NCBI GenBank assembly: GCA_029213195.1 | Contig: JARGNI010000018.1 | Span: 1 to 64,000, forward strand | Source: Verrucomicrobiales bacterium | GTDB taxonomy: Bacteria > Verrucomicrobiota > Verrucomicrobiia > Verrucomicrobiales > DEV007 | Direction: 5' to 3' | DNA: 64,000 nt | Shown: positions 63,507-63,999 of the stretch, one piece after another | Layout: each line of letters starts with the position of its first letter | Numbering within the stretch: position 1 is the first letter of the stretch | Notes under the pieces: generated by a model | What the model was told of the DNA's origin: nothing | Databases searched by the model: none | What the model saw: only the letters and a program-made list of their open reading frames with translations | Made by a program: the position numbers and the translations under genes

Positions 63507-63542
63507 AAAAAGGGCTTTCTCCCGATACTCGAGAGAAAGCCC
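63507..63542 (-). terminator. Terminator for the minus-strand peroxiredoxin gene
   Basis: GGGCTTTCTC (63512-63521) pairs with GAGAAAGCCC (63533-63542). On the minus strand the stem is followed by a T-run (A-run at 63507-63511). It may also stop plus-strand transcripts from the preceding gene, though no T-run lies on that side. Confidence 0.85.
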
Positions 63543-63579: not shown

Positions 63580-63999
63580 CTACTTCTTGTCGACGCCAAG
63601 TTCCTCAAGCTTGGCCGCAACGTCGGAACCATGGTTCCGAGCTTTGACGGCTTTGTCGATATAGAGAATCTTGCCGTCTTTCCCGATGTAGAAAGTGTGC
63701 CGCGCCGGCATCCCTTTCTTGTTCTTCACGAGACCATAGGCCATCGCAGCTTCTCGATCGGGGTCACTGAGGATCGGAAAATCGAGTTCCAACGACTCCG
63801 CAAATTCTTTGTTGGTCTTTTCCTCGTCGCAGCTTGCTGCAAAGTAGGCGACGTCGAACTTCTGGATCTCTTTGCCACTCTCACGGAGCGACTTGCACTG
63901 GGCCGTTCATCCCCCCGTGAAGGCCTTGGGATACCAAGCCACGACCATGGCCTGCTTTCCCTTGAATTCGGAAACCCGGTACATTTTCCCATCACTTCC
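63580..63999 (-). CDS. Peroxiredoxin, probable selenoprotein (Sec in place of peroxidatic Cys), 5' partial
   Basis: The 3' part (139 residues visible) of a Bcp/AhpE-like peroxiredoxin, running off the window edge. An in-frame TGA at 63909-63907 (codon 31 of the visible part) interrupts an otherwise continuous domain: upstream VAWYPKAFTGG, downstream TAQCKSLRE, then DFPILSDPDREAA, ARHTFYIGKDGKI and the C-terminus. The motif PxxxTxxC of peroxiredoxins is matched as PKAFTGG followed by TGA exactly at the peroxidatic Cys, so TGA probably encodes selenocysteine. A Cys four residues later (Cys35) may be the resolving thiol. The enzyme would reduce hydroperoxides with thioredoxin-type electron donors in the cytoplasm. 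Alternative: a nonsense mutation. Confidence 0.85.
63874..63906 (-). promoter_or_regulatory. Candidate bacterial SECIS element after the in-frame TGA
   Basis: Starting 14 bases after the TGA, GUCGCUC (63892-63886) pairs with GAGUGGC (63880-63874) in a seven-base stem with two G-U pairs, closing the loop CGUGA (63885-63881). The loop contains the G-U pair of bases important in bacterial SECIS loops, at positions 23-24 after the TGA, within the distance range usual for these elements. It lies inside the coding region, as expected for bacteria. Confidence 0.6.

Follow-up and report, generated by a model that had tools for sequence, protein, structure and literature searches.

Is the minus-strand reading frame at the end of this stretch of DNA, which resembles a peroxiredoxin gene interrupted by a stop codon at its active site, broken, or does it encode an intact selenoprotein? 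The window, i.e., the whole 64,000-nucleotide stretch that was analysed, corresponds to positions 1-64000 of the 106,635-base contig C32 of genome G000, a 95.4% complete draft assembly of a Verrucomicrobiales bacterium (5.9 Mb, 115 contigs). We conclude that this seemingly stop-broken antioxidant gene is almost certainly intact and that its stop is read as selenocysteine (Sec) at the catalytic position. To the joint reading, in which the gene encodes a Sec69 selenoprotein, an exported Bcp/PrxQ-like AhpC/TSA thiol/selenol peroxidase whose UGA is read by SelB through a hairpin, we assign a probability of about 95%. Sec-containing peroxiredoxins, whose existence a previous sequence-only reading of the locus had noted, form an established family of selenoproteins with a TxxU motif (PMC1088965, PMC13188914), and the window gene is a real selenoprotein gene within this family.

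A peroxiredoxin gene with TGA at the catalytic codon

On the minus strand, the frame from 63999 to 63583 is open, contains a sole TGA at 63909-63907, and terminates at a TAG at 63582-63580. The gene exceeds the window by 113 bases, with its ATG at position 64113 of C32 and the first 38 codons outside the window. Reading the window together with the next contig bases gives a full-length protein of 177 residues in which the TGA is residue 69; in the 139-residue window part it is residue 31. The features of the locus are:

63580..63999, minus strand: 3' portion of the gene for the Sec-peroxiredoxin (codons for residues 39-177, plus the TAG stop), from translation, Pfam and orthologues
63907..63909, minus strand: TGA, Sec codon (U69) at the peroxidatic position of PKAFTGGU (PxxxTxxU), from translation and orthologue codons
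63895..63897, minus strand: TGC, Cys73 (Sec+4), candidate resolving cysteine, conserved in relatives
63874..63892, minus strand: SECIS-type hairpin GUCGCUC-CGUGA-GAGUGGC, 7 bp, from folding and orthologue pairing
63829..63831, minus strand: TGC, Cys95 in an SCD motif, kept near the window gene but not across the wider clade
63580..63582, minus strand: TAG, real stop codon, from the sequence
63507..63542, minus strand: terminator-like hairpin GGGCTTTCTC ... GAGAAAGCCC followed by TTTTT, 3' of the gene, recognised by eye

The sequence-only reading had described the TGA as flanked by good peroxiredoxin sequence and as falling exactly at the cysteine of PxxxTxxC. Both statements hold: in the 139-residue window part, the Pfam AhpC-TSA model (PF00578; 97 bits, cut-off 26) matches residues 3-113 and thus spans the TGA, which occupies the last position of P-K-A-F-T-G-G-U. 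The Redoxin model (PF08534) also matches this part (70.4 bits, cut-off 26.6). None of the NCBIfam models claims the window part over its cut-off; the closest is NF006960 (Bcp; 73 bits, cut-off 140), and NF040737, which we take to be the model of PrxU of Eubacterium acidaminophilum, scores 39 bits (cut-off 270), placing the window protein in a different subfamily. An alignment of 21 orthologues shows P62, T66, U/C69 and R138 to be invariant, the last of which is presumably the catalytic Arg of peroxiredoxins. The AlphaFold2 model of the 175-residue orthologue L161, with Sec modelled as Cys, adopts a Prx fold (pLDDT 92.7) in which the Sec and +4 Cys positions both lie within helix 65-76. Its best Foldseek match in the PDB is 3drn (Sulfolobus Bcp1; E 6e-16, 32% identity), and each of the 50 listed PDB matches has a title that names a peroxiredoxin. 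The N-terminal ~25 residues resemble an export signal, and the protein is accordingly predicted to be exported. Standard annotation would split such a gene at its active site; the truncated gene call anticipated from the sequence alone is right in principle, although 68 residues, not 70, precede the TGA.

TGA and cysteine exchange at the catalytic codon

A family search across 74 genomes yielded 24 close orthologues, the window gene included, of which 18 carry TGA and six Cys at the catalytic codon. Codon-level data cover 21 of the 24, and the 20 others in the alignment of 21 orthologues share 50-75% identity with the window gene. The GTDB-220 collection contains 537 stretches with a candidate relative; among the best 80, some of which come from the same organisms as the family search, the codon is TGA in 57 and Cys in 23, even though one of the two search patterns required a Cys codon at the site and was therefore biased against the TGA form. 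Cys homologues, which the sequence-only reading had singled out for comparison, are thus present in both sets. By record title, the TGA forms among these best 80 belong to Verrucomicrobiota, Planctomycetota and Acidobacteriota, with one titled only 'bacterium', and two of the records are titled as chromosomes (L232, CP036526.1; L228, OX638355.1). Since 57 of the best 80 of 537 candidate relatives carry TGA, many genes of the clade are probably misannotated.

The aligned part of the 24 family orthologues and of the best 80 loci contains no further in-frame TGA; L225, one of the 80, has a TAG 107 codons past the catalytic codon. Codons downstream of the TGA are under purifying selection: dN/dS is 0.06-0.12 in the five of eight pairs with the window gene that have a computable dS, values that are rough given a dS of 1.9-2.8 (the other three pairs are saturated), and 0.04 between L069 and L070. 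The partial rows L082, L089 and L091 were left out of this comparison. A phylum search of 387 genomes gave a match at E <= 1e-20 in 33; its other matches with an internal stop (L033, L036, L144, L145) carry Cys at the catalytic codon, and L042 matches with its C-terminal half only, the catalytic codon lying outside the match. In the family search, L140 and L141 have Cys at this codon and a TGA elsewhere, and weak matches with an internal TAG or TAA (G452, G465) were left out of the codon reading. No relative was found among viral contigs. The plasmid collection returned 72 records and the phage collection 11, all below 60% identity among the five matches listed for each.

A conserved hairpin follows the TGA

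The hairpin downstream of the TGA has a 7-bp stem and a 5-nt loop, beginning 14 and 21 nt after the UGA, respectively, and a bare folding energy of -7.7. It lies within all published limits for bacterial SECIS elements, i.e., a loop of 3-9 nt with a G in the first two positions, a stem of 4-16 bp, a spacing of 16-37 nt and an energy of -7.5 kcal/mol or lower (PMC13188914). Taken alone, the structure is unremarkable: single-sequence folding detected no significant energy (z-scores -0.3 to +1.6), and an equally strong hairpin occurs at 684 of 9387 coding positions (~7%) across 19 window ORFs, although after the terminal TGA in none of these 19. Its evidential weight therefore rests on conservation and on the comparative test.

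All 18 TGA orthologues of the family form seven of seven pairs (126 of 126 pair cells), with compensatory double-sided changes in six cells of two pairs. Among 500 shuffles, none matched the count of double-changed cells or the covariation score, two matched the number of pairs with double changes and 30 the number of further pair types, and sliding the partner strand out of register lowered pairing to 29-64%. Neither the loop nor the Arg codon varies among the 18: every gene has CGUGA and CGT, the latter being a minor codon for Arg in these genes. When synonymous codons were shuffled, 0.7-2.2% of the trials for each gene reached seven pairs. Only one of the six family Cys genes retains all seven pairs. 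In the best 80 of 537 loci, at least six of seven pairs form in 57/57 TGA genes versus 3/23 Cys genes (p 5e-16, kinship ignored), and all seven in 46/57 versus 0/23.

Selenocysteine machinery in the genome

The sequence-only reading had proposed a look for the decoding genes in the rest of the genome. Sec machinery is not wholly absent from it: selA (521 bits, cut-off 268), selB (301 bits, cut-off 242) and selD (380 bits, cut-off 125) form one cluster on contig C21, with open frames save for an in-frame TGA of selD's own (SSCAGUASK), which is followed by a 9-bp hairpin. This selenium cluster occupies 4852-15423 in L021 (G000:C21:5001-25000). Its further members are a senA-like gene (400.5 bits, slightly below the cut-off of 420) and senB (309.8 bits, cut-off 300), both divergent from selD, as well as an ABC transporter with an ATPase, two permeases and a binding protein that scores 259.3 bits against a cut-off of 250 for TIGR04553, 'putative selenate ABC transporter'. 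Such a cluster would connect selenoneine and Sec synthesis via a single SelD. Rfam scans of L021 and L022 returned one match only, at chance level.

Across the 74 family genomes, a TGA orthologue occurs in 18 of the 46 with selB or tRNA-Sec versus 0 of the 28 without (Fisher p 5e-5, kinship ignored). None of the 18 TGA genomes lacks both: selB was detected in 17, the exception being G420, which has tRNA-Sec, and tRNA-Sec in 14, a count that includes two pattern-only matches at or near contig ends. Among the six Cys genomes, four contain both selB and tRNA-Sec, so Sec is not indispensable, and in two (G400, G387) neither was detected.

The missing tRNA-Sec and alternative readings

That the TGA is decoded as Sec in this organism, the central proposal of the sequence-only reading, is supported by selA, selB and selD, by the Cys homologues, by the shared TGA and by the conserved hairpin; tRNA-Sec is missing in the draft. 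Rfam scans and two patterns did not find it in the G000 assembly, one of four such genomes among the 18, and the expected selC gene is thus seen in most of the family's TGA genomes but not in this draft. In relatives, ARAGORN identified a tRNA-Sec with anticodon TCA in 12/12, 20/20 and 3/8 loci of three sets, the last including L152, which is L061 counted again. Rfam missed the tRNA-Sec of G423, truncated at the end of a contig, and that of G449, close to such an end, while the pattern search found both; failure to detect it in a draft assembly is therefore weak evidence. The two one-mismatch pattern matches in G000 (C30, C74) both proved to be tRNA-Trp, with an identical sequence at the ends of two contigs, over which the tRNA-Trp of this assembly is split.

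Of 19 tRNA-Sec loci inspected in relatives, 11 (L058, L061-L065, L067, L110, L131, L154, L156) contain a cysteine desulfurase gene, directly upstream of tRNA-Sec where gene order was read. These desulfurases share 61-88% mutual identity, and the best match in G000 reaches 46-48% with no adjoining tRNA. The whole tRNA-Sec/desulfurase segment thus seems to be absent from the assembly. As the tRNA-Sec-associated desulfurase is missing too, and as the G423 tRNA-Sec and the G000 tRNA-Trp are located at contig ends, an assembly gap is the likely cause. We can only guess that this desulfurase has a role in selenium delivery. In L061, the ORF next after tRNA-Sec is tyrosine-recombinase-like by eye, and G449 has a second copy of only the 3' part of tRNA-Sec (L159). 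The tRNA-Sec may be an integration site (L061, L154, L156, L159), which could account for its absence in draft genomes. One genome has two tRNA-Sec candidates ~700 bases apart (G396:C73:119883-119977 and 120585-120679).

The missing tRNA-Sec leaves room for a reading in which the lineage reads Sec but the trait is decaying in this organism, tRNA-Sec having been lost and the product now being truncated. The trait does get lost in the family, as the Cys-form genomes G400 and G387 indicate. Against this stand the clustered selA, selB and selD, open apart from selD's own TGA, the seven of seven pairs kept by the window hairpin, and the likely assembly gap, which would also have removed the tRNA-Sec-linked desulfurase; we regard ongoing decay as very unlikely. 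Less probable still, to the point of being barely credible, is a pseudogene with a nonsense mutation or a miscall of TGC or TGT. A single TGA in a single draft genome in which tRNA-Sec was not found would look alike, but the TGA is shared with 17 other family genomes and 57 of the best 80 of 537 loci (organisms partly shared), the downstream codons are under purifying selection and the hairpin covaries. Nonsense mutation was rejected on this conservation, and sequencing error is excluded because dozens of other assemblies hold the same TGA, which settles a doubt that the sequence-only reading had raised itself. A genome-wide reassignment of TGA (e.g., to Trp or Gly), which would require no Sec machinery and has nothing besides the open frame in its favour, was rejected as having next to no probability, as TGA serves as a normal stop in the rest of the window, terminating 25 of the 48 non-overlapping ORFs with 100 aa or more, and as homologues have Cys, not Trp or Gly, at the codon. 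A readthrough scan of the window, with candidates assessed by eye, revealed no second convincing selenoprotein.

Proposed mechanism and relation to known peroxiredoxins

In the preferred reading of an intact Sec69 peroxidase, SelB and Sec-tRNA would read UGA codon 69 owing to the hairpin just downstream, and the Sec69 selenol would attack the peroxide. A selenenyl-sulfide would next arise between Sec69 and Cys73, which lies four residues further along the same helix, and a thioredoxin-like partner would reduce this bond. Cys73 is conserved in 21 of 21 family orthologues and in 80 of 80 loci (best 80 of 537), whereas Cys95 is invariant in the 21 but replaced in part of the best 80; since Cys73 is kept in all these relatives and Cys95 is not throughout, we infer that the selenenyl-sulfide links Sec69 to Cys73.

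The Bcp/PrxQ group provides both the closest solved fold (3drn, for orthologue L161) and the closest NCBIfam model. The window protein differs from this group in falling below the NF006960 cut-off, in the presence of Sec in most of its near relatives inspected, and in the position of its second Cys, at +4 rather than the +5 seen in E. coli Bcp and in Cys paralogues such as L092 (CTKQAC). PrxU of Eubacterium acidaminophilum is likewise a Sec-containing peroxiredoxin (cited in PMC13188914).

Published counts of Sec-peroxiredoxin genes are 43 for the Sargasso Sea set (COG1225; PMC1088965), 253 for the GOS set (PMC2398784) and 91, from 78 organisms, for a survey of 2016 (PMC5029168), and the table of a 2026 review places the family ahead of the group 'Predicted with high confidence' (PMC13188914). 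As described in PMC1088965, PMC2398784 and PMC13188914, the Sargasso and GOS proteins (pfam00578/COG1225) share with the window gene an AhpC/TSA domain, a peroxidatic Sec in PxxxTxxU, a bacterial SECIS directly downstream and Cys homologues. This likeness is one of description rather than sequence, and they may belong to the same clade. Selenoproteins of Planctomycetes were reported in 2016 (PMC4807772), in a main text from which the word 'peroxiredoxin' is absent, and the main text of PMC2398784, like that of PMC13188914, contains neither 'Verrucomicrobi' nor 'Planctomycet'. Among the papers listed for selenocysteine and peroxiredoxin in Verrucomicrobia or Planctomycetes, none describes the clade in its title or abstract opening.

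Evolution of Sec/Cys switching

On a 43-row tree (without L143 and L146, and with L091 cut to 120 residues), the Sec/Cys label changes at least five times inside the clade, and keeping the clade's TGA rows together is rejected (p-AU 0.0002). A larger tree with 89 clade members, obtained by a quick tree search without the partial L082, L089 and L091 and without family rows that duplicated the last 100 residues of a row already included, shows 11 changes; counting the outgroup, its starred branches force at least six of 12. At equal costs, a Sec root requires 11 changes and a Cys root 13, while 11 losses suffice from a Sec root if only losses are allowed, compared to 34 gains from a Cys root if only gains are. 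As the outgroup branch is very long, these counts suggest the direction of change rather than fix it. Judging from their sequences, the Cys genes L084, with a full hairpin, and L073, with six pairs and CGUGA as its loop, appear to have changed from Sec to Cys recently.

We would give even odds to the broader proposition that these genes form a large exported UxxxC Sec-peroxiredoxin clade of Verrucomicrobiota, Planctomycetota and Acidobacteriota that lacks a dedicated NCBIfam model, and that its ancestral Sec has been replaced by Cys many times, with decaying SECIS hairpins left as fossils. An ancestral Sec would be the opposite of the trend in a 2006 study, Table 1 of which gives five Cys-to-Sec and no Sec-to-Cys conversions for Prx (PMC1794560). 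Closely related Sec and Cys forms, in some cases from a single genus and in others from genomes retaining Sec machinery, represent natural variants for testing why bacteria keep or drop Sec.

Further Sec candidates in relatives

Other genera of the family contain a second PrxQ-like group, mostly with a TGGUTxQAC motif (L094, L097, L132-L139, L142). Its peroxidatic codon is TGA in 11 of 11 loci, which were selected for a flagged TGA, and the lowest-energy fold includes a hairpin of their own in five of the 11. Two of these TGA genes are in genomes without detected selB or tRNA-Sec, both of which are incomplete (G432, 58%; G440, 53%). As this group is placed beside Cys PrxQ rows on the tree, its Sec probably arose separately. 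In a congener, L143 (G420:C296) encodes a Prx-like protein whose motif is UxxC (FWUPFC), which by its sequence is probably another selenoprotein class.
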